From the NCBI GenBank assembly GCA_000990585.1, contig LBQD01000002.1, forward strand, positions 1 to 56,015: 56,015 nt of DNA, given 5' to 3'. A program made the position numbers and the translations under genes. The DNA comes from Candidatus Moranbacteria bacterium GW2011_GWE2_35_2-. Its GTDB lineage: Bacteria > Patescibacteriota > Minisyncoccia > Moranbacterales > UBA9337. Shown piece after piece: positions 11,888 to 20,303 of the stretch. The notes below the pieces were generated by a model. That model was given only the letters and a program-made list of their open reading frames with translations, searched no databases and was not told where the DNA came from. Positions within the stretch are counted from its first letter, which is position 1, and every line of letters starts with the position of its first letter.

Positions 11888-14467
11888 CTAAAAATTCACA
11901 GAAACACTTTTAGACTCCGTATCAATATTGCCATTTTTATCTTCCACTTTTGCCTCAATTTTAATTGTTGTATTGTTTTTTTCTGTTGGAATATTATATA
12001 CAAAACTCAAAGATTTATTACTAGTGGATTTCACTTCACTTCCATCAATATCTATTTTAAGTTTCTTTATTCCATAAGGCACATTGGCAGATACTGATAT
12101 TTTCAATTTAGACATATCCCCTTCGGAAATTGAAAGGCTGATATTTGGAAGATATTTTTCAAAATCATCCTCCTTGCACTCATTTTTGGGAATTTCACCT
12201 ATAATATATTTCTTAGTTTCTTTGTTATTTTCATACCAATTTTTCACTCCTTTTTCCCAGCGATTAAATTGCGGATCATCTTCGGGATTCTTAGGAAAAT
12301 CTCCCTGCGGATCATCACGCTTCACATACCACAAGATACTATGTGCATCGACAAAGTCTTTTTCTTTAATATCGCTATCTTTGCAATATTTATTTGCTAA
12401 ACAATATTCATCCTTTTTTCCTGGAATCTCACAAACTTTCACATTTTTATCCACTTCAATATCTCCCTTCAATATTCCCTTTTTAATATCTTTCAAAAAT
12501 TCCTCAGGTTTATATTCTGGAAATTTTTCAACATTATAATTTCCCAGCACTTGATCCATAAAACTTCTCCAAATCGGAGCCGCCACATAACTTCCATCTG
12601 CTCCTTTTATCATAGGAGAATTATCATTATTTCCCGCCCAAACCCCCACCGCCAAAGATGGCGCATATCCCATTGTCCAACCATCTCGCCATTCATTAGT
12701 GGTTCCGGTTTTTGCCGCTACAGGACGATTATCAAATCGGAGCGGATTATTTTCACCAAAAACTGGTGCCCTGAATTTATTATTTGAAATGACATAATCA
12801 AGCATTGCCACATATTTTTCATCCACCACTTTTTCACCTTCCGTATCTTTATATTCTTCTACAATATTTCCTTTACTATCTTCAATTCGTAAGATTGCAT
12901 TTTTCGATTTGCGAACCCCTCCGTTTGCAAGCGTAGAAAAAGCCGCTGTATGATCCAATAATTTAACCTCTCCTCCACCCAAAACCAAAGAAAGCCCGTA
13001 CCTATCAGGATAATTTAATCCGGTTATTCCTAATTTTTTCGCCATTTCAGTTGCTTCTTTTACTCCAACCAAATAAAGAGTTTTTACCGCAGGAATATTA
13101 AGCGACATTCCCAATGCGTCCTGCATTTGGAGCGGACCTCGAAAATTTCCATCATAATTTTGCGGAGTATATTCTTTATCTGTTCCCGTATCAAAATTAG
13201 TTTCTACATCAAAAAGGGTTGTTTCCGGAAAATATCCCTTAGAGAAAGCAGTCAGATACACATAAGGCTTGAATGATGACCCAGGCTGACGATCACGAAT
13301 AGCCACATTTACATTACCATCAAATTTGCAGGTCTTTCCGGTAATACATCCTTCCGGAAAAGATTTTCCGAAATAATCTTTTGATCCGACCATTGCTAAA
13401 ATTTGACCGGTTTTTGGATCTATCGCCACCAAAGACGCATTCGCCGCACCGTACTTTTCTTGATTACTTTGCGCGCCTTCCGCCACCACCTTCTCGGCTA
13501 TTTGTTGTTTATTCCAGTCTAAAGTTGTATATACCTTCAATCCATCCTGTTCCAATGATTGATCGCCATATTTTGATTCGAGATATTCTTTAATATACAT
13601 CACAAAGTGCGGCGCAGAAATATTTTCCCTATTCGGAGTAAGTTTAGCAAAAACATCCGTTTGTTTTGCTTGACCAGCTTGTTCTGCAGTTATATATCCA
13701 ATCGTAGTCATTCTATCCAATGCCAATTCTTGTCGAGATTTTAAAGCTTCAACATGTGATCCATATGGAGAATAATATGTCGGGGCGTTAGGAAGGGCTG
13801 CAAGCATCGCCGCTTCATCCAAAGAAAGTTCGCGAGCTGATTTTCCGAAAAATGTCTGCGCGGCTGATTCAACCCCATAAGCATTCGAACCGTAAGGAAT
13901 TTCATTAAGATACATTCCTAATATTTCATCTTTGGAAAATTTTTGTTCAATTTCAAGAGATAAAATAACTTCTTTGATTTTTCGCGTATAGGTTTTTTCG
14001 GTTGTCAAAATTGAATTTTTAACAAATTGCTGAGTAATTGTCGATCCTCCTTGCGCTTTTCCACGATGCAAAAAATCTTTGAGAGCACTGCGAGCGATTG
14101 AACTCAATTTTATCCCATAATGAGTATAAAAATCTTGATCCTCAAGAGAAATAGCGGCATATTTAATACTATCGGGCATCTCAGAAAAAGGAATCAGGGT
14201 TCTTTTTTCTTCTCCGTGCACGTCATACAAAAGATGTTCGCCGGTGCGATCATATATTTTTGTTGATTCCGCCACTACTCTTTTGTTTATTTTTCCCGGA
14301 TCCGGCAAATCTTTGGAATAATAAATAAAAACTCCCGCCACAAATAAAATACCGACGACACTAAGGATTAGACCGGTTTTCCAAAAAATTTTCCACCAAT
14401 CACGCCATTTACCGCTTCTTGCGTCAGAATCTTTTTTAAAATTGTTACTTGTAAAGATATTTCTCAT
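11888..14467 (-). CDS. Penicillin-binding protein 1A (GT51 transglycosylase/transpeptidase)
   Basis: SLEDQDFYTHYGI, GGSTITQQFVKN, SSFKPYVY and KTGTTNEWRDGW motifs; C-terminal Ig-like extension. Confidence 0.93.
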   Translation of the reverse strand: MRNIFTSNNFKKDSDARSGKWRDWWKIFWKTGLILSVVGILFVAGVFIYYSKDLPDPGKINKRVVAESTKIYDRTGEHLLYDVHGEEKRTLIPFSEMPDSIKYAAISLEDQDFYTHYGIKLSSIARSALKDFLHRGKAQGGSTITQQFVKNSILTTEKTYTRKIKEVILSLEIEQKFSKDEILGMYLNEIPYGSNAYGVESAAQTFFGKSARELSLDEAAMLAALPNAPTYYSPYGSHVEALKSRQELALDRMTTIGYITAEQAGQAKQTDVFAKLTPNRENISAPHFVMYIKEYLESKYGDQSLEQDGLKVYTTLDWNKQQIAEKVVAEGAQSNQEKYGAANASLVAIDPKTGQILAMVGSKDYFGKSFPEGCITGKTCKFDGNVNVAIRDRQPGSSFKPYVYLTAFSKGYFPETTLFDVETNFDTGTDKEYTPQNYDGNFRGPLQMQDALGMSLNIPAVKTLYLVGVKEATEMAKKLGITGLNYPDRYGLSLVLGGGEVKLLDHTAAFSTLANGGVRKSKNAILRIEDSKGNIVEEYKDTEGEKVVDEKYVAMLDYVISNNKFRAPVFGENNPLRFDNRPVAAKTGTTNEWRDGWTMGYAPSLAVGVWAGNNDNSPMIKGADGSYVAAPIWRSFMDQVLGNYNVEKFPEYKPEEFLKDIKKGILKGDIEVDKNVKVCEIPGKKDEYCLANKYCKDSDIKEKDFVDAHSILWYVKRDDPQGDFPKNPEDDPQFNRWEKGVKNWYENNKETKKYIIGEIPKNECKEDDFEKYLPNISLSISEGDMSKLKISVSANVPYGIKKLKIDIDGSEVKSTSNKSLSFVYNIPTEKNNTTIKIEAKVEDKNGNIDTESKSVSVNF

Positions 14468-14588
14468 TGCCTATTATATACGTATTATTTGCTTTTTATA
14501 ATATCATTAGGTGCCCACAATGATAGCACAAAAAAGCTCTTCCAGCAATAATATCATTTTACCATATTCAAAACCCTTAGTAAAAGCA

Positions 14589-14619
14589 AAAAACAAACTC
14601 GCTATTGAGTCTGTTTTTC
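14589..14619 (-). terminator. Intrinsic terminator of the ATP-grasp cluster
   Basis: aaaaacaaactc-gctatt-gagtctgttttt, downstream of the minus-strand gene ending at 14749. Confidence 0.55.
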
Positions 14620-14748
14620 ATCATTTTCTTTTATTTTATATCCATGCCGAATTTTTCAAAAATCATTTTCTATTAAAAGCTCGGGGATTATTTACGTTAA
14701 AAAAATAAATAAATTATTTAACAATTTTTTAAATTTATTCACAATAAA

Positions 14749-15756
14749 TTAAGAAAAAAGATAATTCATTAAATTTGGAATCAAATAAATTGATTCTCCT
14801 TGAGTCGGATTACCATGAAATTGAACGGAGGGAAATGTTCCGTTTATTTCTATGATAATACCATCATTTTCAGTTAAAGGTTTTCGTATGTCAGGAGATA
14901 TTATATCTATTCCCACTATAGGAAGACCCAGAGTAGAAACAATATCTTTCCCCATTTTTACAAAATAAGGATGAATTTCATTTGTTACATTTATATATTC
15001 TCCGCCATCAAATCCACTAAAACACAGTGGAATTTTTTTATCTTCTTCTAGTACAGAGTCAAGGTTGTAATTTTCGGAAGCCAGTAATCGCTCAGTTTTT
15101 TCTGATATACTGATTTTTTTAAGTCTTCCTCCTTTTTGTCTTTCTTTATTGATTTTATTTTCAGTTTTAATAAGCTCTCTAATTGTTTTTTTCCCGTTTC
15201 CGGTAATATAAGCTGGTAAATTTTTCGTTGCAGCATATGATCCATCTGCTATATAAGTTATTCTATAATAATCTCCGGGAATATATTTTTCTATCAAAAT
15301 TTTTTTATCAAACTTTTTAGCCACCTTAAATGAATCTACTAATAATTTTTTATTATTAATATTTATAGTTATTCCCTCCCCTTCTGCGGAGCCCAGTGGC
15401 TTCACTACAACAGGAAAAGAAATTTTTTTGATTGCATCGACTAACTCTTTTTCACTATAAATTATCATCCCATCCGCCACCGGATATTCAAGTTTTTTCA
15501 GAAATTCCTTCGCTAAATGTTTATTTTTTGCAATACTCACACCAATAGGATTAGTTTTTGATGTTAACGCTCTATTTATCCAAAAATAATTAGATTCTTT
15601 TTTAAATATAAATATATTCTTTTTATCAAAAACTCTGTATATATCTAATTTATTCTCTATCGCATATCGCAATATTTCCCTGGATGTTCCTTGACCCATT
15701 TTTTTAAAATCATCAACTCCCATTTTCTTCAAATTTTTTATTATAGATAATTCCAT
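14749..15756 (-). CDS. ATP-grasp ligase (cyanophycin synthetase/RimK-like)
   Basis: FPVVVKPLGSAEGEGITI, VEKYIPGDYYRI-like region, C-terminal IIEINGTFPSVQFHGNPTQG. Confidence 0.75.
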   Translation of the reverse strand: MELSIIKNLKKMGVDDFKKMGQGTSREILRYAIENKLDIYRVFDKKNIFIFKKESNYFWINRALTSKTNPIGVSIAKNKHLAKEFLKKLEYPVADGMIIYSEKELVDAIKKISFPVVVKPLGSAEGEGITININNKKLLVDSFKVAKKFDKKILIEKYIPGDYYRITYIADGSYAATKNLPAYITGNGKKTIRELIKTENKINKERQKGGRLKKISISEKTERLLASENYNLDSVLEEDKKIPLCFSGFDGGEYINVTNEIHPYFVKMGKDIVSTLGLPIVGIDIISPDIRKPLTENDGIIIEINGTFPSVQFHGNPTQGESIYLIPNLMNYLFS

Positions 15757-15779
15757 CTAAATTATTTTTTTAATATTAA

Positions 15780-17552
15780 TTATTTACCTATATATGGAGA
15801 ACTTGCCATTAGATACAGAACATTTCTATGTTCAGAGCCCGCAAAACTATTTCTAGCATCAGGTGACGTTTTTTTATTTAATGTATCAACAAGAAAATTT
15901 CCATCAAAAGAAAAAGATCTACCCGCCTCTTCAAAAATATTTTTTTCAGAGGAAGCACTATAATTACAAAGCTTGGCACAAACAAGAAACTCAAATTTAT
16001 TATCCAAAGAAATATCATCGTATTTTTCCATTATAAGTTCGTCCATAAAATCTAACATTTTTTTATAGATAGGAATTTCTTCTAAAGGTATTTCATGACT
16101 ATAAAAACCAGAAGCTCCTATTATACAGTGCGTATAGAAATATATCTGCAGGGTTAATGCTTGCTCCCCTCCTTCATCTTGATAAAATTTACCTATTTTA
16201 TAAAGTTTCTTAATATCAATAATACAGGAAGATCCCAAATATTCTCTTACTAAATAGAAATAATTTATGGCATGCGTCGAAAGAATTCTTAACGCTTCGT
16301 CGTCATTTTCCAGATCTGTTTTAAGTTGAAGTAAATCATTATCAGAAACAAGTTTACTAATTTCATTTTTTACGTCTTTCTCATATAAAGAAAGTGCAAA
16401 AAGATATTTGAACAAAATCCCGAGAAAATTTTCTAGTTTATTATATTTTTTAAAAATAACCATGCGCTCCTCTCTGGCCACCATTTTTTCTCCATGTTCA
16501 CGAGTTTTCAAAAAAATATTTCTAAGATTAGACTCTAGTTCATAATCACTTTTCCCAAGATAAAAACTTTTTAGTTTATCCAATCCGGCTCTATAAAATT
16601 CTTCTTTATTCCAAAGATACATCCTGGAAAAATAATGGAATTTTTTATCCCATAAAAATTCTACATTTGAGTTATAAAAATCTAAAACACATTTTCTTGT
16701 GTCATTTTTTCCTCGTTTCATTAACTCTTGACAATGCAATAAAATTTCTTTTGCAACATCAACCCCTGTTGCAGCTTGAAATCCTTTCCACTGAGGAACA
16801 GTATTCACTTCCAAGAAAAAATATCTTTTCTGATTCTCATCATATATTACATCAACACCGCATAACGTAAGCTTAAAAATAGATGCCACAGTAGATCCTA
16901 TATGATGAAGTGGTTTTAAAATATCTGGATCGGTAATGTGCAAAGCGCTTCCTCCTTTAGAAATATTGTTGAGAAATCCCCCATCTTTTGCAATTCTCTT
17001 CATTACGCCAAGAACTTTTCCTCCCATCATAAAAACACGATAATCTCCTGAATTTTTAATAAAATTTTGATATACATTTCCTTTTGTAGAGACTATCTTT
17101 TTTTCAAGCTCATCTTTATTCCCGATAAGCTCCACGCCTTCTCCTTTCGATCCCTTAACTGGTTTCTGTATGAAGGGAAATTTAATTCTTTCATTAATAA
17201 TAGCCCTTAGCAAATCCTCTTTGGTTTCAAATAAAAACGAATCTATAGTATTAACAGTATTGGTACTTTTTCTCACATATTCTTGTTGAAAAAACTTATT
17301 TGTAGCGTTAGGAAAAATTGCCAAGCATTTATTTATAAGAATTCGAGATTTCATAATTTCTTCCATCACAGACTTTCTTTTAGAACCAGATCCGAGAGAT
17401 GAAGATCTCCACAATATTATATCACCTAAATTCTCTATTTCTTTCTTACTTGAAATATCTCTGACTTCCAAATCAAAAGAAAAATCAGCTGCAGCTTCTT
17501 TGAGTTTTTCAACTTGCCATTCAGTTGTTTTACATATAATAGATAGTTTCAT
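15780..17552 (-). CDS. ATP-grasp ligase (RimK-like) with a large C-terminal helical domain of unknown function
   Basis: FPFIQKPVKGSKGEGVELI, GVDVIYDENQKRYFFLEVNTVPQWKGFQ; ~300 aa C-terminal extension not recognised. Confidence 0.7.
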   Translation of the reverse strand: MKLSIICKTTEWQVEKLKEAAADFSFDLEVRDISSKKEIENLGDIILWRSSSLGSGSKRKSVMEEIMKSRILINKCLAIFPNATNKFFQQEYVRKSTNTVNTIDSFLFETKEDLLRAIINERIKFPFIQKPVKGSKGEGVELIGNKDELEKKIVSTKGNVYQNFIKNSGDYRVFMMGGKVLGVMKRIAKDGGFLNNISKGGSALHITDPDILKPLHHIGSTVASIFKLTLCGVDVIYDENQKRYFFLEVNTVPQWKGFQAATGVDVAKEILLHCQELMKRGKNDTRKCVLDFYNSNVEFLWDKKFHYFSRMYLWNKEEFYRAGLDKLKSFYLGKSDYELESNLRNIFLKTREHGEKMVAREERMVIFKKYNKLENFLGILFKYLFALSLYEKDVKNEISKLVSDNDLLQLKTDLENDDEALRILSTHAINYFYLVREYLGSSCIIDIKKLYKIGKFYQDEGGEQALTLQIYFYTHCIIGASGFYSHEIPLEEIPIYKKMLDFMDELIMEKYDDISLDNKFEFLVCAKLCNYSASSEKNIFEEAGRSFSFDGNFLVDTLNKKTSPDARNSFAGSEHRNVLYLMASSPYIGK

Positions 17553-17568
17553 TATTTTTTAAAAATTA

Positions 17569-18975
17569 TTATTTATTAACATCCACCAAAAATCTTCCTA
17601 GATTCCTTTTTCCAATAATAGCTTGAAATTTTAATTCCTCTCTTTTTATTACATTAACACTTGCCGGGATTATTAAACTATCCATAATAAAATTTATTTT
17701 TATTGCTGGTCTTATAGAAACACCGTGAGAAGAATAAACAATATTGATATTGTCTAAATCAGAATGACCTGTTAAATATTTTTTTCGAAGTTCCTTCTCT
17801 ATTTTCGCAGCATCTTCTCGGGAAAAATTCTGTGGAAATTCTATTTTTTCAAAATAATTTAAAGCTTCTTCAAATCCCAGTTCTCTAGCCAGCTCTACAT
17901 CAATCGATGTCGACATAGCCCCGGTATCAATTTTCGCTTCGACTTCGACTTCTTTTCCATTTTTTCCAATGAGTTTTACTTTTTCCACGGTGCCGATCAC
18001 TCTTCGCCCGGAAATTTCTTCCAATTCCTCTTCAATCTCCCCTCCAAACAAATCCATTCCCACGCGTACTCCGCGCTTGATCGTTTTTATTTTAAGCCCC
18101 TCCACTCTTTCCAATCTTCCACGCAATCCCGCCAGATTGGCAATTTGAATGGAAAGTCCGGCGCGCGCATTAATCTCCACAAAAACCGGGCCTTTTTCCT
18201 TGTCAATCGCCACATCCGCGCCCAAAAAACCCAATCCGGAAATTTCTTGCGCTTTTACCGCCAATTCCAAGATATCTTTCCAGTAAGGAATTTTGATTCC
18301 GGAAAGCAAGAGTCTTGTTCCGGGAACATATTCAACAATTTTTGATTTTCCCTGGACGGCAGTAGTGGTGACTCCTGTTGCCAAATCAATTCCCAACCCA
18401 ATTCCTCCTTGTTGCAGATTGGCTTTTCCGCCGGATTCTTTTGTCGGGAGTCTAAGCATTGCCATTACTGGAACCTTGTTAAAAACAATCACGCGAATAT
18501 CGGGAATTCCCTTATAAGCATAAGTTTTAAATAATTTTAATAGCCTCAATCTTTCTTCAAAAAATGCAATGTCTCCTTCTCCGGAAATTGAAAAGTTTCC
18601 ATCCAAGATATTACGAATATGGTTTTTAATATCTTCAATGGTAATAATCGAGCCATCAGCTTTTACCCATGCATCATCCCATCCTTTTTTTCTTCCATAG
18701 ACGACCAGAATTCCTTCCCCCCCTAACCCTCTATTGGGTTTGAGAGCAAACCCAGATGGCAATTTACTCCAATCGAAATTGTCTAATTCTTTATGTGAAG
18801 AAATTTTTGCCAACAAATCAGGCACAGGAATTCCGCCTTTTTTCAAAACTCTTTTACTCAAAATTTTGTCGTCCGCCAATCTAATAGCTTTTTTTCTATT
18901 GTTAGGACGGATGTATTTGAGATTTCGGGAATTCATCCCTAAAATTTTGCGACTATTTTTTATAAATCTAAACAT
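17569..18975 (-). CDS. Fusion of an alpha-L-glutamate ligase-like ATP-grasp domain and a retropepsin-like 'ATP-dependent zinc protease' (RimB/PF05618-like) domain
   Basis: N-terminal FALKPNRGLGGEGILVVYGRKKG...VEINARAGLSIQIANLAGLRGRLE; C-terminal VKLIGKNGKEVEVEAKIDTGAMSTSIDVELARELG...IIGKRNLGRFLVDVNK. Confidence 0.82.
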   Translation of the reverse strand: MFRFIKNSRKILGMNSRNLKYIRPNNRKKAIRLADDKILSKRVLKKGGIPVPDLLAKISSHKELDNFDWSKLPSGFALKPNRGLGGEGILVVYGRKKGWDDAWVKADGSIITIEDIKNHIRNILDGNFSISGEGDIAFFEERLRLLKLFKTYAYKGIPDIRVIVFNKVPVMAMLRLPTKESGGKANLQQGGIGLGIDLATGVTTTAVQGKSKIVEYVPGTRLLLSGIKIPYWKDILELAVKAQEISGLGFLGADVAIDKEKGPVFVEINARAGLSIQIANLAGLRGRLERVEGLKIKTIKRGVRVGMDLFGGEIEEELEEISGRRVIGTVEKVKLIGKNGKEVEVEAKIDTGAMSTSIDVELARELGFEEALNYFEKIEFPQNFSREDAAKIEKELRKKYLTGHSDLDNINIVYSSHGVSIRPAIKINFIMDSLIIPASVNVIKREELKFQAIIGKRNLGRFLVDVNK

Positions 18976-19048
18976 GAATCATTAAGCATAGAACACACGA
19001 CATAAAAACATAAAAAATACGTTTCGTTATGTATTACTATATTGAAAA

Positions 19049-19717
19049 TTACATCCCCTTAAACACTTCTCGAAATCGATAGTACTCGCTAAATCGCAAT
19101 CCAGTCCATTTACCAAGAAAAAAATTAATCGGAATTGTCAAAAGAACTACCCATGGATGATATATAATCATATTGATGATTATATTCAGTCCGACCAAAT
19201 AGAAACAGACCAGGGAAATCATCAATGTTTCCAAGGCTAAAAGCACAGCTGTTCGATTTCCCTTCTCAATCTGCGTTGCCACAAATTTCTCCACAATCGC
19301 AATCATAATTAGAAGTGGAAAAATAGAAACAGAGGCCAATCCTGTTCGTTGCAAAGATCCTCCGAAAACTAAAATTGCCAAAATTGCAAATGAAACGATT
19401 GTAAGTGTTATTGCCACACGAGGAAGATACAATAAGCGCAATTTTTTAAGTAAATAACGCGCAATCATCCCAGCTATAATAACGCTTATAAAAATTATCG
19501 TTCCATATTTTACTCCGGAAAATCCATTATTATTATTGATTCTCATCGCCATAAAAGCCAACGTAACAATCATTGGAGTATAAATTCCAAAAGCTTTTAT
19601 CCCGAAAACCTGGCGAAAAAAAGCAATTATAGTGGCGATTATCGGAAACATCAAAATCAATATAACAGTCTCCAACGGAACGCCTTGATGAACAAAATAG
19701 TTTATTATCGGATGCAT
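19049..19717 (-). CDS. 7TM protein of the type usually fused to inactive transglutaminase (7TM_transglut-like)
   Basis: 222 aa, multiple TM helices, FRQVFGIKAFGIYTPMIVTLAF; located directly upstream of the ligase/protease fusion. Confidence 0.7.
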   Translation of the reverse strand: MHPIINYFVHQGVPLETVILILMFPIIATIIAFFRQVFGIKAFGIYTPMIVTLAFMAMRINNNNGFSGVKYGTIIFISVIIAGMIARYLLKKLRLLYLPRVAITLTIVSFAILAILVFGGSLQRTGLASVSIFPLLIMIAIVEKFVATQIEKGNRTAVLLALETLMISLVCFYLVGLNIIINMIIYHPWVVLLTIPINFFLGKWTGLRFSEYYRFREVFKGM

Positions 19718-19817: not shown

Positions 19818-20303
19818 TTAAAAATTATTCATTTTTCGACTATTAAGATGGCAGATAGCGATGGCGATAGCATCGGCAGTGTCGTCCGGCTTAGGGATTT
19901 CTTTTAATTTCAAAATACTTTTCACCATAATCTGGATTTGTTTTTTTTCCGCCCGCCCGTATCCCGTGAGCGCCTGTTTTACTTGAAGCGGAGTATATTC
20001 AAAAATTTTCAATCCCATTTTTTCCAATGCTAACAATATTCCTCCACGAGACTGACTCACTTTCATTACCGTTTTAATATTTTTAAAAAAAAACAAATCT
20101 TCTACCACCCCTTCAGTCGGACTATATTTCCGAATAATGTTTTCAATATCATCTGCCACTTCCTTGATTCTTTCAGACGTACTGCGTTTTGGCGAAGTGG
20201 AAATATGACCGTATGCAATCGGAACTATTTTTCCATCATCCTCTTCTAAAATCGCCCATCCAGTTGTTGCCGTCCCAGGATCTATGCCTAAAATGCGTAA
20301 CAT
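19818..20303 (-). CDS. ruvC: Crossover junction endodeoxyribonuclease RuvC
   Basis: ILGIDPGTATTGWAI, VVEDLFFFKNIKT and DDTADAIAIAICH. Confidence 0.95.
   Translation of the reverse strand: MLRILGIDPGTATTGWAILEEDDGKIVPIAYGHISTSPKRSTSERIKEVADDIENIIRKYSPTEGVVEDLFFFKNIKTVMKVSQSRGGILLALEKMGLKIFEYTPLQVKQALTGYGRAEKKQIQIMVKSILKLKEIPKPDDTADAIAIAICHLNSRKMNNF

Follow-up and report, generated by a model that had tools for sequence, protein, structure and literature searches.

Four consecutive genes in a reduced Patescibacteria genome probably encode this phylum's counterpart of the RloABC system, one that would ligate and trim an acidic peptide tail. The genome, that of a Moranbacteria member, measures 0.92 Mb at 96.55% completeness and is therefore regarded as reduced. 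The cluster combines a 7TM membrane protein, a single polypeptide that joins an ATP-grasp ligase to a retropepsin, and two further ATP-grasp ligases. In the window, i.e., the whole 56,015-nucleotide stretch of DNA that was analysed, the locus is laid out as follows:

19818..20303, minus strand: RuvC, conserved upstream neighbour (domain scan and synteny)
19049..19717, minus strand: 7TM membrane protein, RloB core (PF14402) with no outer domain; 222 aa, ATG start
17569..18975, minus strand: fusion of an RloC-type ATP-grasp ligase and an RloA-type retropepsin; 468 aa, ATG start
15780..17552, minus strand: slot ligase 1, in which a RimK-like ATP-grasp is followed by a C-terminal region similar to DUF3541; 590 aa, ATG start
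14749..15756, minus strand: slot ligase 2, a free-standing ATP-grasp protein similar to the cyanophycin synthetase ligase domain; 335 aa, ATG start
14587..14620, minus strand: terminator-like hairpin ending the unit
11888..14467, minus strand: PBP1A, past the hairpin; conserved neighbour downstream of the slot in the order (Pfam and synteny)

The earlier note had described four consecutive minus-strand genes closed by a terminator, with PBP1A just downstream, and this layout was recovered in full. All four ORFs are present with ATG starts and are separated by only 16-73 bases, and Pfam places PBP1A at 11888-14467 (Transgly 5e-60, Transpeptidase 5.1e-23). The hairpin at 14620-14587 is weak evidence when taken alone, since six such sites were found in the whole stretch against 2.9 expected. 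RuvC is not thought to be part of the system and is attributed to genome order.

The 468-aa protein carries both enzymatic halves on one ORF, as had been proposed. Its ligase half covers approximately residues 8-293 and matches PF14397 ATPgrasp_ST (2.1e-69), whereas the retropepsin half covers approximately residues 326-468, with the catalytic stretch D350-T351-G352-A353. The top NCBIfam model was TIGR02291 rimK_rel_E_lig (1.1e-87; 294.0 bits, under the curated line of 314.2), and the RimK family itself was matched at only 2e-16. In the Moranbacteria genome, a PF14397 search returned the fusion as its sole match. The AF2 model of the fusion (pLDDT 78) was built, like the others here, from a shallow alignment of window and related-locus proteins only, and its best Foldseek matches were ArgX and RimK, enzymes that extend a protein's C-terminal glutamate. 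No signal peptide was seen on the fusion, whose N-terminus is the ligase. The C-terminal part matches the NCBIfam models RloA3 and RloA1 under their cut-offs and PF05618 at 27.3 bits, just over the cut-off of 27. This marginal score is backed by a family profile of 16 relatives, in which the retropepsin half matches two crystal structures of RloA, 9g58 (5.4e-6) and 9g59 (4.4e-5). The C-terminal half thus proved PF05618-like, as the earlier note had put up for testing; its label "zinc protease" has to be dropped, as the members of PF05618, despite the family name "Zn_protease", are aspartic proteases (PMC12239564).

The residues retained in the retropepsin half suggest that its substrate is acidic. 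In Pseudomonas, RloA cuts stretches of at least eight glutamates, which it contacts via K46, R114, and R137, with D48 as the catalytic residue (PMC12239564); counted along the alignment, these correspond to K348, R422, R445, and D350 in the fusion. Among 132 aligned fusion proteins, 113 have an intact DTG or DSG and 19 do not. The equivalents of K348, R422, and R445 are kept in 97/113, 109/113, and 104/113 of the DTG/DSG-bearing proteins, respectively, and both arginines in 41/41 fusions of the order to which this genome belongs. For the flap lysines and arginines that contact polyglutamate in RloA, no conservation was seen in the fusions.

The 222-aa protein matches only PF14402 7TM_transglut in Pfam (2.2e-26), in line with the earlier description of a 7TM gene that lacks the transglutaminase part, and it matches the NCBIfam RloB model NF052267 (2.3e-20) over that model's C-terminal 7TM part. 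Its AF2 model is all-helical (pLDDT 81), and a fold search against the PDB gave no significant match, the best being NqrD at E 0.9. In other Patescibacteria, the 7TM proteins begin with a signal-peptide-like sequence and carry PKD where the transglutaminase would be, or nothing at all; the core may thus be able to dispense with the transglutaminase of RloB. At L166:7306-8808 and L178:9653-11203, RloB-type 7TM proteins carry PKD plus a further region at the position of the inactive transglutaminase of Proteobacteria.

Judged from sequence and gene order, the 7TM protein and the fusion are the conserved core of the system. The fusion was matched in 55 of the 57 nearest genomes, in 70/286 genomes of the class, and, with a divergent relative as query, in 115/380 genomes of the phylum (~30%); the 7TM family was found in 87/287 phylum genomes. 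The 7TM gene lies immediately upstream of the fusion in nearly all loci examined, and both proteins are well conserved order-wide relative to those of the present locus (fusion 58-73%, 7TM 58-71%). Co-occurrence of all four genes, which the earlier note had set as a test, therefore holds in part: order and spacing of the 7TM-fusion pair are kept across ~90 loci, but the 590-aa gene recurs at full length in a single further locus of those sampled, and the 335-aa type is exchangeable. The unit is thus best described as a two-gene core with a changing ligase slot.

This slot is the region downstream of the fusion, bounded by PBP1A in most loci of the order, and its genes vary in kind and number. 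An ATP-grasp gene directly follows the fusion in 38/41 order loci, and 97 slot proteins taken from the order include 58 RimK, 25 TTL (tubulin-tyrosine ligase), and 8 MATCAP matches, besides 8 group 1 glycosyltransferases, 5 YdjC, and 3 Mur ligases. Both additional enzymes in the present locus are ATP-grasp proteins, as was noted before, and they are the sole matches to the RimK family in the Moranbacteria genome. The 590-aa protein matches RimK ATP-grasp at 4.8e-25 and DUF3541 weakly at 0.0039 (Pfam); among the sampled loci, a full-length counterpart occurs in L110 only, where DUF3541 scores 31.3 bits against a cut-off of 28.2. Its residues ~290-590 form a DUF3541-like helical region joined to the RimK-like ligase. 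The 335-aa protein matches several ATP-grasp families in Pfam, as well as TIGR02068 cyanophycin synthetase (1.3e-70, positions 155-471 of 862), and this ligase type is one among several exchangeable slot ligases. The two extra ligases here are, on this comparison, one draw from a variable slot and no fixed set.

In distant relatives, the retropepsin has decayed, and this is read as its replacement by an unrelated MATCAP metallocarboxypeptidase. DTG is lost in 19/132 fusions, in which the equivalents of K348, R422, and R445 remain in only 3/19, 1/19, and 0/19, whereas the ligase residues K79, E140, R161, E267, and N269 remain in 19/19. A MATCAP-like domain accompanies all 19, fused behind the decayed retropepsin in 17 and encoded by the next gene in 2; among DTG-bearing fusions, it is fused or in the operon in 21/113 (Fisher p 3e-12, uncorrected for kinship). 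PF08014 (MATCAP) was matched, e.g., at 3.6e-56 in L166, whose fusion is 794 aa long, and 1.3e-29 in L170, and at 8.4e-12 in L142, but there with the motif HEVIH. HExxxH together with EEG or QEG is found in 16/17 fused MATCAP domains, the exception being L191, which has a shorter frame. A further fusion, that of L209, retains the letters DTG but lacks the flap as well as the two arginines, and it groups among the decayed fusions. In a tree of the ligase half, the losses fall in ~3 clades; a phylogenetic paired sign test of the peptidase swap was consistent in direction, with ~3 independent losses being too few for significance, and the probability that all three loss clades carry MATCAP given the 21/113 background was roughly estimated at ~0.006. 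A PF08014 search gave no match in the Moranbacteria genome, but none in the control genomes either, so that its absence there is tentative. MATCAP enzymes remove C-terminal residues, glutamate included, from tubulin tails (PMC10499314), and the change to such an enzyme suggests that the substrate is a tail whose C-terminus is free. The replacement thus predicts a free, probably acidic, C-terminal end, and the trimmers, retropepsin or MATCAP, are read as interchangeable.

The similarity of the ligase half to ArgX and RimK, the basic residues of the retropepsin, and the carboxypeptidase swap together support a single protein that both lengthens and shortens an acidic tail. The ligase half would use ATP to extend the free carboxyl terminus of a cytosolic acceptor by acidic residues, probably glutamate, and the tethered retropepsin half, presumably as a dimer, would trim the resulting tail, so that one chain with opposing halves could govern tail length. 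The 7TM protein may anchor the reaction at the membrane or export the product, and the ligases of the slot may place lineage-specific residues onto the same acceptor or tail. The peptide ligation and trimming system suggested in the earlier note is in this respect supported. The fusion also implies one substrate and one compartment, a question that is open for Pseudomonas RloABC. The reading also provides a candidate function for a locus retained through genome reduction. In Pseudomonas, loss of RloB or RloC rescues the loss of RloA (PMC12239564). However, RloA is secreted there, whereas the protease here is tethered to the ligase and lacks a signal peptide, and the Pseudomonas physiology can therefore not be transferred. 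More speculatively, and in our view rather doubtfully, the system might constitute a writer-eraser code on acidic tails similar to the tubulin code, with a constant ligase and tethered eraser, changing TTL/RimK-like writers, and interchangeable erasers, retained almost as a core trait in reduced genomes.

A possible alternative, which we hold less probable than not, is envelope decoration, in which slot ligases, glycosyltransferases, YdjC deacetylases, and Mur-type ligases would assemble a peptide of varying composition on a glycan linked to the wall or to a lipid, PBP1A being the neighbouring gene. It is compatible with ligation and trimming of a tail and differs in that it names the acceptor. 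The presence of glycosyltransferases (8), YdjC (5), and Mur ligases (3) beside the ATP-grasp proteins fits it, as do PBP1A being next after the slot in most order loci, the shape, osmotic, and cell-wall antibiotic phenotypes of Pseudomonas rlo mutants (PMC12239564), and the rapid turnover of slot genes, which suits a surface trait. However, the synteny of PBP1A, RuvC, and YebC may reflect no more than genome order, PBP1A is separated from the slot by the terminator-like hairpin and is more distant or not seen in many relatives of the class, and no constant wall-acceptor enzyme accompanies the core.

It is unlikely that the fusion serves as a cytosolic polyglutamylation switch similar to RimK-RimB, modifying and de-modifying a ribosomal or other cytosolic protein with the 7TM protein as a tether only. 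Such a switch would agree with both halves sharing one compartment, with RimK being among the best structural matches of the ligase half, and with the in vitro substrates shared by RimB and RloA (PMC12239564). Yet almost every locus retains the 7TM gene alongside the fusion, whereas RimK-RimB has no such partner, and the ligase half is of the TIGR02291/PF14397 (RloC) type and not RimK. Ribosomal protein S6, the RimK substrate, was considered as the acceptor. In the order, S6 (L236-L265; e.g., L262, from the Moranbacteria genome itself, C4:33056-33352) is extended at its C-terminus by a long charged stretch, and the last residues form a strongly conserved, hydrophobic motif similar to DIDKKLDEILNI, often ...DEILNI, with no glutamate at the end, which makes S6 no obvious acceptor and also speaks against the cytosolic switch.

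A peptide natural product, i.e., graspetide-like or cyanophycin-like peptides made by the slot ATP-grasp enzymes and processed by the fusion, is very unlikely: graspetide clusters have been reported in CPR bacteria (PMC8939145), L128 contains a full cyanophycin-synthetase-like protein, and the 14749-15756 protein resembles the ligase domain of cyanophycin synthetase, but gaps of 16-73 bases leave no space for a precursor peptide gene between the cluster genes, and natural-product clusters, unlike this core, are not spread almost throughout an order. Least likely is that the retropepsin half lacks protease activity and persists as a relic or regulatory domain, for although its Pfam score barely exceeds the cut-off, DTG/DSG is kept in 113/132 fusions, mostly together with the binding residues, and decay is found only where MATCAP is present.

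The preferred reading, a ligase and trimmer acting on an acidic tail, places the system close to the RloABC of Pseudomonas aeruginosa (PA14_41690-41730; PMC12239564), which comprises the same three families, namely, a retropepsin, the 7TM RloB, and the ATP-grasp RloC. The components are thus not new in kind, and the description of an uncharacterised system is superseded, the family now being named, with genetics (RloABC, mBio 2025). The main polyglutamate-binding residues K46, R114, and R137 are kept here as K348, R422, and R445. In Pseudomonas, however, RloC and RloA are separate, RloA is secreted by means of a signal peptide, and the RloB 7TM region is fused to an inactive transglutaminase, whereas in Moranbacteria RloC and RloA are fused with the retropepsin as the C-terminal domain of a ligase-led protein, the 7TM protein stands alone with 222 aa, and exchangeable ligases are added. 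Since a secreted protease and the RloB transglutaminase are both lacking, the system is called an RloABC variant. It occurs in Patescibacteria, whereas 96% of RloB matches are from Proteobacteria (PMC12239564).

RimK-RimB (PMC11957791) likewise pairs a glutamate ligase with a retropepsin that reverses its work, both cytosolic, but it consists of separate genes without a 7TM partner and acts on S6, whose tails in Moranbacteria are unlike the RimK target. The peptidase of the relatives shares HExxxH and EEG/QEG with the MATCAP/TMCP tubulin carboxypeptidases (PMC10499314) and the TIGR02421 QEGLA proteins, and unlike the tubulin carboxypeptidases it is bacterial and fused to an ATP-grasp ligase. 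As far as the openly accessible literature shows, the RloC-RloA fusion and its near-universal occurrence in Moranbacteria appear to be new. The same holds for the slot of exchangeable ligases, for 7TM forms that are bare or carry PKD, and for fused proteins in which MATCAP has replaced the retropepsin. Some of these architectures may have been noticed before, for example by Iyer and colleagues in their 2009 survey of amidoligases.

Compared with cyanophycin synthetase, the 14749-15756 protein matches the ATP-grasp part and lacks the N-terminal and Mur-ligase parts, so that on its domain content it should not make cyanophycin alone. At L128:5964-8525, by contrast, the ligase slot holds a cyanophycin-synthetase-like protein of full length, with both ATP-grasp and Mur ligase. 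Lastly, triple fusions of an ATP-grasp ligase, a retropepsin with intact DTGA, and a MATCAP-like peptidase are found at L142:11165-13999 and L153:11660-14530, and both loci also contain extra MATCAP-like and L-amino-acid-ligase-like genes.
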